From Mameliella sp. MMSF_3455 (GTDB taxonomy: Bacteria; Pseudomonadota; Alphaproteobacteria; Rhodobacterales; Rhodobacteraceae): 64,000 nucleotides of DNA. The translations under genes were made by a program, and so were the position numbers. This document shows, in pieces, positions 22,984-28,550 of this stretch (position 1 is the stretch's first letter; each line of letters starts with the position of its first letter). The notes beneath the pieces were generated by a model. The model was not told where the DNA came from, did not search any database, and saw only the letters and a list, made by a program, of their open reading frames with translations. Location of the stretch: contig NZ_JASHJL010000030.1 in the NCBI RefSeq assembly GCF_030733205.1, positions 1-64,000 on the forward strand, given 5' to 3'.

Positions 22984-23847
22984 TTATTCAGCTGCCAGTT
23001 GCTGCTGACCTTCGGTGCCAAGTGCCGCCAGTTCCGCCACCACGTCGCGCAACCGGCGCCGGACAGAATCGAACTCCGCGTTCGGCAGGATCCTGGCCTC
23101 GTCCATGTAGACCGCCCGGTCGATTTCCACCTGCACCGCGTGTTGACCGCGCGACGGCCGACCGTAATTCTGCGTCGTGTAGGCCCCGGCAAACGGCGCG
23201 TTGCGCGCCACGACGAACCCCGCGGCGGCAAAGGCCGCTTCGACACGTTCGACGATCTCGGGACGGGCCGAAGCGCCGAACCGGTCACCGATCACGACTT
23301 CGGGCCGCCGTCCGCCGTGACGGGCAGAACCGTCCAACGCTTCGTGCGGCATCGAGTGGCAGTCGATCAGCACCGCCTCGCCAAAGCGCTCGCGGGCGTC
23401 GTCCAGCAACGCTTGCAGCTGGTCATGGTAGGGTTGCCAGATTCGCGCGATTCGCCGATCCACCTCTGCCCGCGTCAGCTTGCCGCGATAGATTGCGCGT
23501 CCGTTTGCCACCACGCGCGGCACGACGCCAAGCCCGCTGGCCACCCGCGGATTGTGCCCGCCGCGGCGCAAACCCTCGATCAGCGCCGGGTCCAGTTCGT
23601 CGGCGGCTCGGTTCAGATCGACGTAGGCACGCGGTGCCCCGGCCCGTAGCAAAGCGGCCCCGAATTCCGGCGCACAGTCAAAAAGACGGTCAACATAGGC
23701 GTCTTCGGAGGTCCGGATGCTGTGATTGTCCAGAATCGTGGTACGCAGAAAGCTGTCGGGATAGTCCCGGCCCGAATGCGGAGAGGCGAAAACCACGCGC
23801 GACGCGGGTGTCTCGGGCATGTGCAGGTGGTACGAAGTTTCAGGCAT
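22984..23847 (-). CDS. N-formylglutamate amidohydrolase family protein
   Basis: A 287-residue hydrolase of the N-formylglutamate amidohydrolase (HutG-like) family. The start of the domain has the zinc-site-like stretch VVFASPHSGRDYPDSF, then RTSEDAYVDRLF and DLNRAADELDP, and the catalytic half has LIDCHSMPHEALD and RNAPFAGAYTTQNYG. In the histidine-degradation route this enzyme releases formate from N-formylglutamate, but no other hut genes are nearby, so its role is open. It converges on lpxK and is divergent from the tRNA gene. Confidence 0.9.
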   Translation of the reverse strand: MPETSYHLHMPETPASRVVFASPHSGRDYPDSFLRTTILDNHSIRTSEDAYVDRLFDCAPEFGAALLRAGAPRAYVDLNRAADELDPALIEGLRRGGHNPRVASGLGVVPRVVANGRAIYRGKLTRAEVDRRIARIWQPYHDQLQALLDDARERFGEAVLIDCHSMPHEALDGSARHGGRRPEVVIGDRFGASARPEIVERVEAAFAAAGFVVARNAPFAGAYTTQNYGRPSRGQHAVQVEIDRAVYMDEARILPNAEFDSVRRRLRDVVAELAALGTEGQQQLAAE

Positions 23848-24407: not shown

Positions 24408-26096
24408 TCAATCCCGATCCAGCCCGATGACACCATCCGCCAAGAGCCGAACCACGGTTTGTTCGTCGAGATAACCGGACACGCGCAATCCCCGCGAATC
24501 CTGGTATCGGCGTATGGCCGCCCGGGTGTTATCGTCGAATCGGCCATCCACCTTGCCCGGCTTCAGCCCCAACTGTTTCAGCCGCCGCTCGGCCAGTTGG
24601 CGCGCCACGAAGTTCAGGTTCATCCCCTGCTCTTCCTGCCGTGCCGCCACCGCGTCGCGCACCTTGGCGGCATCATGTTCCAGAAGGGCGATTCGCTGCT
24701 GCGCCTCGGCGCGGAAGGCGCCGTTGGGCCAGTCCTGCAAATAGGCCCGGTAGGCGCTTGTCGTGTTGGCCTGTGCGGCCTTGGCCCAGTCCCGCCGATC
24801 CTGGCCGGCGGCCTGTTCGGCGCGGCGGTCGTCTATCTCCTGCAGGACCCGGCGAGCCTGATCGGCGAACTGACCTTCGGGATATTTCTGCAGGTAGTCG
24901 CGGAAACCGTCTTCCTCGCCCCGCCTTTCGACCTGCCGCCAATAGGCCCGCTCTTCGCGTTCCCGCTCCAGCCGCCGTTGCTCTGCCTGGCGTTCCAATT
25001 CCGCGGCCCGCCGGGCCGATTGATCCTCCAGCCGCGCGATCTGGTCGCGGCTGAGATAGCTTGTCACGCGCAGGCCCGAATCCTCCTGCCAGCGCCGGAT
25101 CGCGCCGCGGGTTCCATCGCCAAAGATCCCGTCGATGCCGCGCGTATCATACCCCAGAATCGACAGCGCCCGCTGGATGCTGCGCCTTTGCTCGCGTGTC
25201 AGTTCCAGCGCCTCTTCGGCCCGGCGCTCGCGGTAGAAAGGCTCGGAATTCAGCGCGTTCAATCGCTGACGCGCGGCATTGGCGTTCTGCCCGTCCGGAA
25301 AGCCGTCCAGGTAAGCGCGGTAGCCGTCAGGCGAATCGGCCTCTTGCGCTAGCCGCCAGGCCGCGTCATCCGCCGCCCGCGTAAAGGCCGATGGATCGGG
25401 GCGCGCGGGATCCGACGGATCGCGGGCCCCAGTCACGTCCTCGGCCCGCACGATCACCTGCGTATGAGGCGCGAAGCCCTCGACCTCAAGTTCGTAGTCC
25501 AGCGCCGCGCGCAACACAAAACGTCCGGTCCGGGCCAGGTCCCGCGCCGCATAGCGCGCGACGTCCACCGACGGTCCGCGGATCACCGTCACGCCCTGCG
25601 GAATGTCCAGGTCGCCCAGACCCTCTGACAGGAACAGGCCCAGTTCGGGATCGGTCGGGGTCTCTCCCAGGACCAGGAAGGCGCGCCCCTGGTAAGCCGA
25701 AAGGATCGACAGCGCCGCATCCAGAGGGAACCCCTGAACCAGCACGTCGGCCTCGTCGATTCGCCCCGACCCGGTGACGGGAACAAGATAACTGCCCCCG
25801 ACCCCGTGCACGAAAGCACCCGAGAGGAGGATCACCACCGGCCCGCCGTCATCGTCCAACTTCGCGGCGAATTCGGCAAAGGCGCGGCGCATGCCGGCGG
25901 CATCCGCGTCCTGCGTCAGCGATACGTCGAACCCCTTGTCGCGCAGGGCATCGGCCGCCACGGTCACGCGTTGGGCACCGAACAGCGTCTGGACGGCGGT
26001 ATAGCGGCTGTTGCCGATCACCAGCGCGTCGCCGGTTGCCTGGGCGCCCGTCGCGCCCAGGATCGCGCCCGCCAGGGCAAGGGCGAATATCCGCAT
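24408..26096 (-). CDS. Exported pseudo-caspase with two peptidoglycan-binding domains
   Basis: A 562-residue protein. A signal peptide (about 1-21, ending GAQAT) is followed by a caspase-fold (C14-like) domain to about residue 200 (ALVIGNSRY, later GSYLVPV). Where active relatives have GHG with the catalytic His, this one reads SGAFVHG; where they have DACRDN with the catalytic Cys, it reads LGETPTDP. The dyad is therefore lost. Three short repeats of the pattern YLxxxPxGxxxxxAxxRL occur near 270, 415 and 460. Two PG_binding_1-like domains lie at about 315-370 (IDGIFGDGTRGAIRRWQ) and at the C-terminus (VDGRFDDNTRAAIRRYQ). A periplasmic scaffold or wall-binding role is inferred. Confidence 0.85.
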   Translation of the reverse strand: MRIFALALAGAILGATGAQATGDALVIGNSRYTAVQTLFGAQRVTVAADALRDKGFDVSLTQDADAAGMRRAFAEFAAKLDDDGGPVVILLSGAFVHGVGGSYLVPVTGSGRIDEADVLVQGFPLDAALSILSAYQGRAFLVLGETPTDPELGLFLSEGLGDLDIPQGVTVIRGPSVDVARYAARDLARTGRFVLRAALDYELEVEGFAPHTQVIVRAEDVTGARDPSDPARPDPSAFTRAADDAAWRLAQEADSPDGYRAYLDGFPDGQNANAARQRLNALNSEPFYRERRAEEALELTREQRRSIQRALSILGYDTRGIDGIFGDGTRGAIRRWQEDSGLRVTSYLSRDQIARLEDQSARRAAELERQAEQRRLEREREERAYWRQVERRGEEDGFRDYLQKYPEGQFADQARRVLQEIDDRRAEQAAGQDRRDWAKAAQANTTSAYRAYLQDWPNGAFRAEAQQRIALLEHDAAKVRDAVAARQEEQGMNLNFVARQLAERRLKQLGLKPGKVDGRFDDNTRAAIRRYQDSRGLRVSGYLDEQTVVRLLADGVIGLDRD

Positions 26097-26310: not shown

Positions 26311-27483
26311 TCAGTCGTAGCTGCGCTGGTCCTCGATCACCAAACCGTCGCGCGGCAGCGCCCCGGGCGCCACCAGTTCGACCCGTCCCTTCAACTTCAG
26401 CACCTCGGCCACGGTCCCCTCGTAGGTCGAAGCATCGCCACCATCCGCCTCGATCCGCACCGTCATCACGTCCATCTCGCCTTCGCGGCTGGCGACCACG
26501 CGGGCGCGGGCGATCTCGGTGTGCTTGGCCACCAATTGCGCCACCTGTTCGGGGCGTACGAACATGCCCTTGATCTTGGTCGTCTGATCGGCGCGGCCCA
26601 TCCAGCCCTTGATCCGGGTGTTGGTCCGTCCGCAGGGGCTTTCGCCCGGCAGCACGGCGCTCAGGTCGCCGGTGGCAAAGCGGATCAGCGGGTAATCGGG
26701 GTTCAGCGTCGTCACGACGATCTCCCCCACCTCGCCCTCCGGGACGGGATCGCCGGTGCCCGGCGTAACAAGTTCGACGATCACATGTTCGTCGAGAATC
26801 ATGCCCTCCATTTCGGGGCTCTCGTAGGCGACATTTCCCAGGTCCGCGGTCGCGTAACATTGCAGGCACTGGATGCCGCGGTCCGCATAATACTGGCGCA
26901 GCGAGGGGAAGAGCGCGCCGCCCCCGACCGCCGCCCGCGTGATGCCCAGCTCCAGCCCCATCTCGTCGGCCTTTTCCAGGATCATCTTGAGGTAATCCGG
27001 CGTGCCCGCATAGGCCGTCACCCCGACGTCTCGGGCCGCCCGGGCCTGCAGCTCGGTCTGGCCGGTTCCGGCAGGCAGAACCGCGGCCCCCACCGCCCGC
27101 GCACCGGATTCAAAGATCATTCCCGCCGGGGTCAGGTGATAGCCGAAACAGTTCTGCACGATGTCGCCGCGCCCGATGCCGCAGGCGTTCAGGAAACGGC
27201 CCATCCGCCACCAGTCATGGCTGATGCCGCCGGGCTCGTAGATCGGTCCCGGGCTTTGAAAGACATGCGCCAGGTTCGACACCGGCAGACCGCCAAACGG
27301 CGGTTCCGCAGCCTGTTTCGCCACCAGGTCGGCCTTGCGAAGCACCGGCAGATCGGACAGGCCCGACAGGTCTTCCAGCGGGTCGATCCCCTGTCTGTTC
27401 AGCTGTACGTTCAACGCCTCCAGCTGTGCCGCCTCGCGCGCATCGCGACTGCGCGTCTCCAGCTCGTCGAAATAGGTGCTCAT
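26311..27483 (-). CDS. Phenylacetate-CoA ligase (PaaK)-like adenylate-forming enzyme
   Basis: A 390-residue ANL-superfamily enzyme of the PaaK type, shorter than full acyl-CoA synthetases. It contains VQNCFGYHLTPAGM, a glycine-rich AVGGGALFPSLRQYYADRG and, near the C-terminal hinge, LIRFATGDLSAVLPGES followed by GWMGRADQTTKIKGMFVRPEQ. The PaaK family makes CoA thioesters of aryl acids such as phenylacetate. ATG 27483 is chosen because AAGGAG lies six bases upstream; a GTG one codon earlier is too close to it. It is divergent from the tandem-domain gene, next to the Liv-type ABC importer, which suggests activation of an imported carboxylic acid. Substrate is not determined. Confidence 0.88.
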   Translation of the reverse strand: MSTYFDELETRSRDAREAAQLEALNVQLNRQGIDPLEDLSGLSDLPVLRKADLVAKQAAEPPFGGLPVSNLAHVFQSPGPIYEPGGISHDWWRMGRFLNACGIGRGDIVQNCFGYHLTPAGMIFESGARAVGAAVLPAGTGQTELQARAARDVGVTAYAGTPDYLKMILEKADEMGLELGITRAAVGGGALFPSLRQYYADRGIQCLQCYATADLGNVAYESPEMEGMILDEHVIVELVTPGTGDPVPEGEVGEIVVTTLNPDYPLIRFATGDLSAVLPGESPCGRTNTRIKGWMGRADQTTKIKGMFVRPEQVAQLVAKHTEIARARVVASREGEMDVMTVRIEADGGDASTYEGTVAEVLKLKGRVELVAPGALPRDGLVIEDQRSYD

Positions 27484-27680
27484 CACGCTCTCCTTCGAAA
27501 TTCCGTCGTCCGGGCGCAGGCGGTCCTGCCAGGCCTCCCCGGTCCAGGCCGGACGCGCCGGAGCCGTCCGGTGTCAACGCCACCGCCCCGTTGCGCCGGC
27601 AGGCATATTGATTTGGAACAAGGTGCCCCGCCGTCCCAACCCCTAGGGTCTGCCAAGTCAAAGGGAGAGGAGGCCCAGAG

Positions 27681-28550
27681 ATGCACGACGATATTGATGC
27701 CCGCATCCGGTTCGACGATGTCCGCCAGATCATGGAGGTCGACTTCTCCGGCTTCGTTTTCGACAACTCGACCACCGTCAACCGGTTCTATGACCGGATC
27801 GAGACGCGCATCGCGGACACGGGCGAGGAACTGTGGTTTTTCCTGATCAATCTGAACGGCACGCGCATCGACAACTCGGCCTGGGTGGCCTACGCGCGGC
27901 GCGGACGGGCGTTGAACATGGCGCACTCGATGGGATCCGTGCGCTTCGACGCCTCGCCGGAAACCGCGGCCCAGATCGAACGCTCCGCGCGGACAGAGGC
28001 ATTTGACCCCAACCTGTTCACGAACCGGGCCGATGCACTGGTCCGACTGGGACAGATACCCTCCCGCAGACGTGCGCATGTGCAGCACGACCCGAACTAC
28101 ACGCCCCAGGATTTCTTTCACCGCATCGCCTTCGACGACAGGGCGGAGATCATGGAGGTGGATTTTTCCTGGTTCACCTTCAACCATTCCCGAGACGTCA
28201 ACGATTTCTACGACCACATCGAAAGCCGCATCGCCGACAGCGGGCGTGACAGGTGGTTTTTCCTGATCAACTACGAGGGTACGCAGATCCTGCCGGCTGC
28301 CTGGGTGCAATACGCTCATCGGGGCAAGACGCTGAACTTGGAACATTCGCTGGGCACGGTGCGCTACGCGCCGGGATCCGAGACAGAGGCCGACATCCGC
28401 CTGCGCGCCGAAAGCCAGGACTTCCGCCCCAACATCCGCAACACGCGCGCCGAGGCGTTGGCCCGGATCGAGGAAATGCGCGGGGACCATGGCTATCGGT
28501 CCGCCCGGCCCACGGCGCAGGACGCGTTGGCGCCACAGGGGCGCGGGTAG
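27681..28550 (+). CDS. Tandem-duplicated domain protein of unknown function
   Basis: A 289-residue soluble protein made of two copies of one domain. Residues 11-130 align to residues 151-270 with no gaps, a period of exactly 140 residues. FDDVRQIMEVDFSGFVFDNS in copy 1 matches FDDRAEIMEVDFSWFTFNHS in copy 2 at 13 of 20 positions, and both keep WFFLIN and a following AW. The order of hydrophobic strands and helices loosely recalls a STAS/SpoIIAA fold, which is only a suggestion. A GGGAGAGGAGG ribosome-binding site precedes the ATG. It is divergent from the PaaK-like gene and converges on the cupin gene in the Liv-type importer locus. Confidence 0.75.
   Translation: MHDDIDARIRFDDVRQIMEVDFSGFVFDNSTTVNRFYDRIETRIADTGEELWFFLINLNGTRIDNSAWVAYARRGRALNMAHSMGSVRFDASPETAAQIERSARTEAFDPNLFTNRADALVRLGQIPSRRRAHVQHDPNYTPQDFFHRIAFDDRAEIMEVDFSWFTFNHSRDVNDFYDHIESRIADSGRDRWFFLINYEGTQILPAAWVQYAHRGKTLNLEHSLGTVRYAPGSETEADIRLRAESQDFRPNIRNTRAEALARIEEMRGDHGYRSARPTAQDALAPQGRG

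Follow-up and report, generated by a model that had tools for sequence, protein, structure and literature searches.

The window analysed here, a stretch of 64,000 nucleotides from Mameliella sp. MMSF_3455 (contig NZ_JASHJL010000030.1, positions 1 to 64,000), carries on its reverse strand a gene whose predicted product joins a signal peptide, a caspase-fold domain without its catalytic residues and a tail made of three short repeats and two peptidoglycan-binding (PG-binding) domains. The gene lies between those for a ligase and an amidohydrolase, and the coordinates of all these features are collected in Table 1.

Table 1. Features of the pseudo-caspase gene and its immediate neighbours (positions in the window)
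Feature	Position	Strand	Basis or remark
Pseudo-caspase/peptidoglycan-binding protein gene	24408..26096	-	562 aa, ATG start, stop at 24408-24410; full-length homologues
Signal peptide, residues 1-20, signal peptidase I type	26037..26096	-	Predicted by eye and a simple test
Caspase-fold (p20-like) domain, residues 21-222, catalytic residues gone	25431..26036	-	Pfam, AlphaFold, VIA-align
Ala94 codon, catalytic-His position	25815..25817	-	Alignment
Thr146 codon, catalytic-Cys position	25659..25661	-	Alignment
IPQGVTV, residues 165-171	25584..25604	-	Alignment, conservation
Repeat 1, residues 247-285 (W...YRAYLDGFPDG)	25242..25358	-	Pattern
PG-binding domain 1, residues 296-360	25017..25211	-	Pfam
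Repeat 2, residues 386-421 (W...FRDYLQKYPEG)	24834..24941	-	Pattern
Repeat 3, residues 437-472 (W...YRAYLQDWPNG)	24681..24788	-	Pattern
PG-binding domain 2, residues 499-551	24444..24602	-	Pfam
AMP-binding (paaK-like) ligase, upstream neighbour	26311..27486	-	Beside the gene in 54/81 homologous loci
N-formylglutamate amidohydrolase (hutG-like), downstream neighbour	22984..23847	-	56/81 loci, 54 on the same strand

In the full-length product the Pfam model PG_binding_1 (PF01471) matches two stretches with 101.5 bits, above its curated score, and Peptidase_C14 reaches 26.9 bits against a cut-off of 21.4, over residues 24-93 only. All three repeats show the same spacing of 22 residues between Trp and Gly (W247...G269, W386...G408 and W437...G459), and among 81 homologues the YLxxxPxG pattern occurs three times in 60 proteins, twice in 16 and four to seven times in 5. 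The N-terminus contains a hydrophobic core and the residues AQA preceding residue 21, without a lipobox; a simple and loose signal-peptide test was positive in 80 of 80 homologues whose locus includes a start codon (a further, truncated row was left out). The signal peptide, the three short YLxxxP-type repeats and the two PG-binding domains that an earlier note had read from the DNA are thus all borne out by Pfam, the repeat pattern and the signal-peptide test, and the predicted signal peptide together with the PG-binding domains makes a location in the cell envelope likely.

The surroundings of the gene were counted in 81 of the 85 homologous loci, with 19 of the 54 paaK matches, which reach by at most 33 bases into the stop-to-stop frame at its upstream end, taken as upstream. 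The transporter gene livF is found near the gene in 52 of these 81 loci, and paaK is not nearby in 27, four of which belong to loci of less than 12 kb cut by contig ends. The liv transporter, the paaK-like ligase and the hutG-like gene form a stable synteny with no evident envelope theme, and the conserved order may be passive. Between the ligase and the liv genes, the window also encodes (27681-28550, forward strand) a protein of 289 aa with two halves that look similar by eye; it has no Pfam match at E<=0.001 and was found in 18 of the 81 loci. Another neighbour, exemplified by L131 (7628-8890, reverse strand), is a probably secreted protein that begins with an LCGGxGxNGQWIGG-like sequence and contains PPC and galactose-binding-like domains; proteins of this type are encoded on the opposite strand downstream of the pseudo-caspase gene in 10 of the 81 loci, and 8 of these 10 are without paaK.

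An AlphaFold model was built from 78 sequences, namely the window protein and 77 from the best 80 of 497 candidate relatives (L204, L212 and L223 contain a stop inside the matched range and were left out), and counts from this alignment lean to close relatives because the best 80 were taken. The model has a mean pLDDT of 86.5, with values below 50 at residues 1-17, and a pTM of 0.42, so that the domains are well predicted but their mutual arrangement is not. The nearest solved fold by VIA-align is the MALT1 paracaspase (PDB 7ak1 and others), which residues 19-277 of the model match with a best Z of 17.2 and an rmsd of 3.3 over 183 aligned positions, and the top Foldseek matches are likewise MALT1 (E 1.6e-6). 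MALT1 is an active animal protease, to which the window protein is 18% identical, and the common fold says nothing on function. Pfam, AlphaFold, Foldseek and VIA-align agree in assigning the modelled head to the caspase-hemoglobinase fold (clan CD), and the caspase-like fold recognised in the earlier note is in this way confirmed by both the Pfam C14 match and the resemblance of the model to MALT1. No separate p10 model appeared among the matches, and the segment behind the PQGVTV strand is short and without the pocket loop.

Within this fold the catalytic residues have been replaced. The caspase domains of 85 homologues, 80 from the genome sample searched at E<=1e-40 and five from congeners (the partial or split genes of G143, G176, G189 and G191 being left out), were aligned with 29 active-type C14 domains, taken from 27 of the 30 loci L137-L166 together with L024 and L025; L153, L157 and L163 gave no clean motif match. 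These references were chosen for GH[GA] and DAC, and their own 29/29 dyad is therefore by construction. Against them, the catalytic-His and catalytic-Cys columns of the window protein hold alanine and threonine (DACR becoming GETP), and the His visible in SGAFVHG is residue 97, off the catalytic position; the earlier note had read both catalytic positions as changed. None of the 85 homologues has Cys in the Cys column, which accommodates 12 residue types (Glu 18, Asp 17, Ser 10, Ala 10, Thr 9 and seven others), and the His column is occupied most often by Arg (28), followed by His (26) and Ala (10). The loss of the dyad is common to the 85 homologues and hence not due to chance. Another His-Cys pair, the finding that according to the earlier note would speak against a pseudoenzyme, is impossible in this protein since it contains no Cys at all; its only His residues are 97, 211 and 474.

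The substrate pocket has gone as well. One of the 85 homologues retains the Asp that lies two positions ahead of the catalytic Cys and 16 retain the Asp of the NxxND motif, while the pocket loop, with an invariant DG in active forms, is deleted in 84, and the QxPW columns are empty in all 85. We take the pocket columns to correspond to Asp211 and Asp95 of TbMC2, an assignment that goes by motif position. The protein has neither the His-Cys dyad nor the acidic S1 pocket with two Asp of a catalytic C14 peptidase or orthocaspase. Within the dead domain, conservation is highest in the motif IPQGVTV, which is mostly absent from active C14 domains: the PQGVT columns hold Pro in 79, Gln in 73, Gly in 85, Val in 83 and Thr in 71 of the 85 homologues, against 5, 0, 19, 2 and 0 of the 29 active references. 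In the 78 sequences from the best 80 of 497 relatives, only Gly93, Gly168 and Gly207 are invariant in the head, which leaves no residue as a candidate for a conserved new nucleophile.

Despite these losses, the dead domain is maintained by purifying selection. Its dN/dS was 0.04 and 0.05 against two close congeners and 0.09 and 0.19 against two more distant ones. In the nearest pair (L059) the value of 0.04 stands beside 0.05 and 0.05 for the two PG-binding domains, and in the congener L061 the dead domain gave 0.09 versus 0.37 for PG-binding domain 1. The two other genera tried yielded head ratios of 0.36 (L063) and 0.14, less reliable because the dS values of 1.1 and 3.0 are near saturation. 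Non-catalysis is strongly supported by the absence of Cys and of a substitute nucleophile, the loss of the pocket and the purifying selection, and the pseudoenzyme claim is about as firm as sequence permits.

At E<=1e-40 the protein family was detected in 84 of 198 sampled Rhodobacteraceae genomes, with a single match in 81 of the 84 carriers; the extra matches are a paralogue in the window genome (G000) and gene pieces in G007 and G189. In a sample of 240 genomes from across the class, eight have a match at 1e-30, one of them being the genome of the window itself. GHG and DAC are intact at all ten matched places of the other seven, and no dead orthologue outside Rhodobacteraceae was seen in this 240-genome sample at that threshold. 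Among the best 80 of 497 relatives, the nearest named ones are Mameliella alba (95%), Mameliella sp. CS4 (93%) and M. sediminis (80%). Thioclava pacifica DSM 10166 (L226) is a further named carrier. In the 78 aligned members from these best 80, PG_binding_1 is recognised at E<=0.001 in all 78 and Pfam C14 in 41; as this model sees about half of the members, Pfam-based surveys seem to undercount such proteins. A record labelled Enemella evansiae (L186), an actinobacterial name, contains a locus that shares 56% identity with the window protein, and the label is probably wrong. For the protein itself, PADLOC gave no defence match, PHROGs returned six endolysin families, which align to the PG-binding or repeat region, besides a single weak match to an integrase, and among plasmids one record matched part of the protein (query 306-468).

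A FastTree tree of 128 domains unites the 91 dead sequences (the 85 homologues and six paralogues, of which the window genome and five congeners contribute one apiece) in a single clade with an SH value of 0.966, and an interim IQ-TREE tree groups them likewise, with the caveat that the trimmed columns include the dyad and that a long branch leads to the dead clade. In the FastTree tree this clade adjoins the active-type L024, L149, L155 and L160. L126, the sole sequence with a remnant of the loop, branches first, the other 90 forming a clade (SH 0.772). The paralogues are also dead and cluster with L065 inside the protein family (SH 0.962). The one from the window genome (G000:C43:12066-13280; L167, 3064-4272, forward strand) is a protein of 403 aa with a dead caspase domain and one PG-binding domain; counterparts occur in five congeners, and its caspase domain is invisible to Pfam at E<=0.001.

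Elements of the same tail are present in active-type proteins. PG_binding_1 exceeds the Pfam cut-off in two of ten scanned active Rhodobacteraceae C14 proteins (L147 and L151) and gives sub-threshold matches in three more, and the repeat occurs in all eight active-type alphaproteobacterial proteins that were read, six by the strict pattern and two by a looser one. In L262, from another alphaproteobacterial family, a GHG/DACR caspase, the repeat and a PG-binding-like region follow each other in the same order. Since active-type proteins share the architecture, it probably came first and catalysis was lost later. The tails of active-type C14 proteins of Rhodobacteraceae vary (L137, L139, L147, L148 and L149), with Sel1, SH3, YARHG and NADase-translocation domains. 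In G028, an ORF with four PG_binding_1 stretches (L129, 3679-7079) lies directly before the pseudo-caspase gene, which suggests a local duplication of the PG-binding tail.

Bacterial pseudo-orthocaspases, described by Klemencic et al. (2019, PMC6426788) as having a p20-like domain without the HC dyad and no p10 domain, likewise have the His-Cys dyad replaced and are reported from Alphaproteobacteria and Cyanobacteria (PMC6426788, PMC7889975). The window protein has just such a p20-like domain without the dyad. In PMC6426788, the pocket Asp residues, named as Asp211 and Asp95 of TbMC2, are both reported as highly conserved in pseudo-orthocaspases, though not as part of their definition, whereas the window family has lost the pocket loop and, in all but 1 of 85 members, the Asp preceding the Cys. 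The survey in that paper counts 14 Rhodobacterales pseudo-orthocaspases and may have missed many members of the present family, and the word ‘peptidoglycan’ is absent from its main text. Deletion of SyOC, the pseudo-orthocaspase of Synechocystis, raised oxidative-stress tolerance according to PMC7889975. PMC3501461 reports a putative PG-binding domain in 11 metacaspases and gives 75% dyad conservation in Alphaproteobacteria. In such active-type proteins (L262, L151 and L147; PMC3501461) the caspase also comes first, with the PG-binding region behind, and L262 shares in addition the YLxxYPxG repeat; however, active-type C14 proteins keep GH[GA] and DAC[RN], whereas the window family has lost dyad and pocket and carries two PG-binding domains and typically three repeats. 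From these sources, pseudo-orthocaspases and PG-binding metacaspases are each known separately. Going by titles and the opening lines of abstracts, searches of the open-licence literature brought up no paper on a catalytically dead caspase that carries PG-binding domains in this group, and ‘caspase’ is absent from the accessible text of the Dinoroseobacter shibae vesicle proteome (PMC7901474). Judged by its predicted domains, the novelty of the window protein is that of a pseudo-orthocaspase set apart by the loss of the substrate pocket and by a putative wall-binding tail.

One candidate ortholog was rejected. RSP_1880, a PG-binding protein of R. sphaeroides, co-precipitates with DalA (PMC10470522) and belongs to the targets of CenR (PMC9275681). 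A search of 394 Rhodobacteraceae genomes for the published 15-base CenR motif gave a hit in 5; the motif of G080, at C4:478118, falls within an open frame of 870 codons. This frame matches the family model only at 271-349 of 551 positions, corresponding to the PG-binding domain, and from its likely start it encodes one PG-binding domain and no caspase-like motif. From the position of the motif, we take G080 to be R. sphaeroides 2.4.1; its best family match elsewhere covers 168 positions (E 1.8e-17).

We consider it probable that the window protein is a pseudo-orthocaspase of the Rhodobacteraceae envelope, working in the periplasm as a non-catalytic binding scaffold anchored to peptidoglycan. 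According to its signal peptide, it would be exported by Sec, and its domain content and the model suggest that it may be tethered to peptidoglycan by its pair of PG_binding_1 domains, borne on a long helical arm. The caspase-fold head, which by the alignment has lost catalysis and substrate cleft together, could with the repeats hold one or more periplasmic partners at the wall, as a scaffold or an allosteric regulator. The dead form probably arose once; its ancestor would have been an active C14 protease that was exported and already had this repeat, accompanied in certain lineages by a PG-binding domain, with the change running from active to dead. Purifying selection on a dead domain whose catalytic positions are freely variable makes a binding module the most likely function. 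Conservation in the head is mostly that of Gly and hydrophobic residues and does not bring out a conserved partner surface, and no partner was found. Of the ‘non-catalytic envelope scaffold’ proposed in the earlier note, the non-catalytic part is upheld by the missing Cys and the lost dyad and pocket, and the envelope part by the signal peptide and the PG-binding domains, while the scaffold itself is what we infer as the most probable mechanism. More tentatively, an exported caspase might have turned into a structural protein throughout the family, with a partner-docking head on a PG-anchored arm that organises wall enzymes. The degenerate LytM factors EnvC, NlpD and DipM, catalytically dead regulators with a fold unrelated to that of caspases, may serve here as a working analogy only, that of a dead hydrolase fold at the wall acting as a regulator. 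NlpD is named as a hydrolase activator in PMC10470522.

Other explanations have to be weighed against this PG-anchored scaffold. Pseudo-caspases elsewhere regulate active paralogues, as FLIP(L) does with caspase-8, and the window genome has one further Pfam-detected C14 protein, so the protein might act on active orthocaspases of its own cell, either as a decoy or by regulating them. This is unlikely, since most carriers are without a strong Pfam C14 partner and such a role would not fit them: strong C14 matches (best E at or below 2.5e-12, a cut of our own that counts Pfam matches irrespective of the dyad) occur in 28 of 84 carriers against 45 of 113 non-carriers (Fisher p 0.37), in a test that treats genera as independent and takes the 198- and 197-genome samples as the same. 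By a test with the same assumptions, reaction-centre genes are distributed alike in carriers (36 of 84) and non-carriers (48 of 113; odds ratio 1.02, p 1.0), which makes the role in photosynthesis printed for pseudo-orthocaspases (PMC6426788) hardly credible for this family, even if the window genome has two Photo_RC genes. The frequent vicinity of the paaK-like gene and livF would accord with a service to branched-chain or aromatic acid uptake and CoA-ligase genes, an improbable function given the 27 loci without nearby paaK, the 214 bp between the pseudo-caspase and paaK-like genes in the window and the lack of any protein domain suited to transport.

Two further readings concern the head itself. 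A still-active enzyme with a rebuilt active site could draw on His97, present in 40 of the 78 sequences (best 80 of 497 relatives), and on the canonical His kept in 26 of the 85 homologues; with no Cys, a freely variable Cys column and no invariant polar residue in the head of the same 78 sequences, it is very improbable. The free variation of the catalytic residues would equally suit a decaying relic in which the PG-binding half alone is important, yet by dN/dS the dead domain of the nearest pair is no less constrained than the PG-binding domains, and we regard decay as quite improbable.

The dead form is common to many relatives and, judging from the predicted domains, probably has a job in the cell envelope. 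As selection has kept the caspase fold while catalysis and pocket were lost, the fold presumably serves some purpose other than the binding of protease substrates. The lack of association with reaction-centre genes speaks against a general link between pseudo-orthocaspases and photosynthesis. If an exported caspase has indeed become a structural protein, the family would be an envelope counterpart of the dead LytM regulators, one easily overlooked given that Pfam sees C14 in barely more than half of the closest members. The gene, usually single-copy in many Roseobacter-type isolates, offers a means to probe a dead caspase at the wall.
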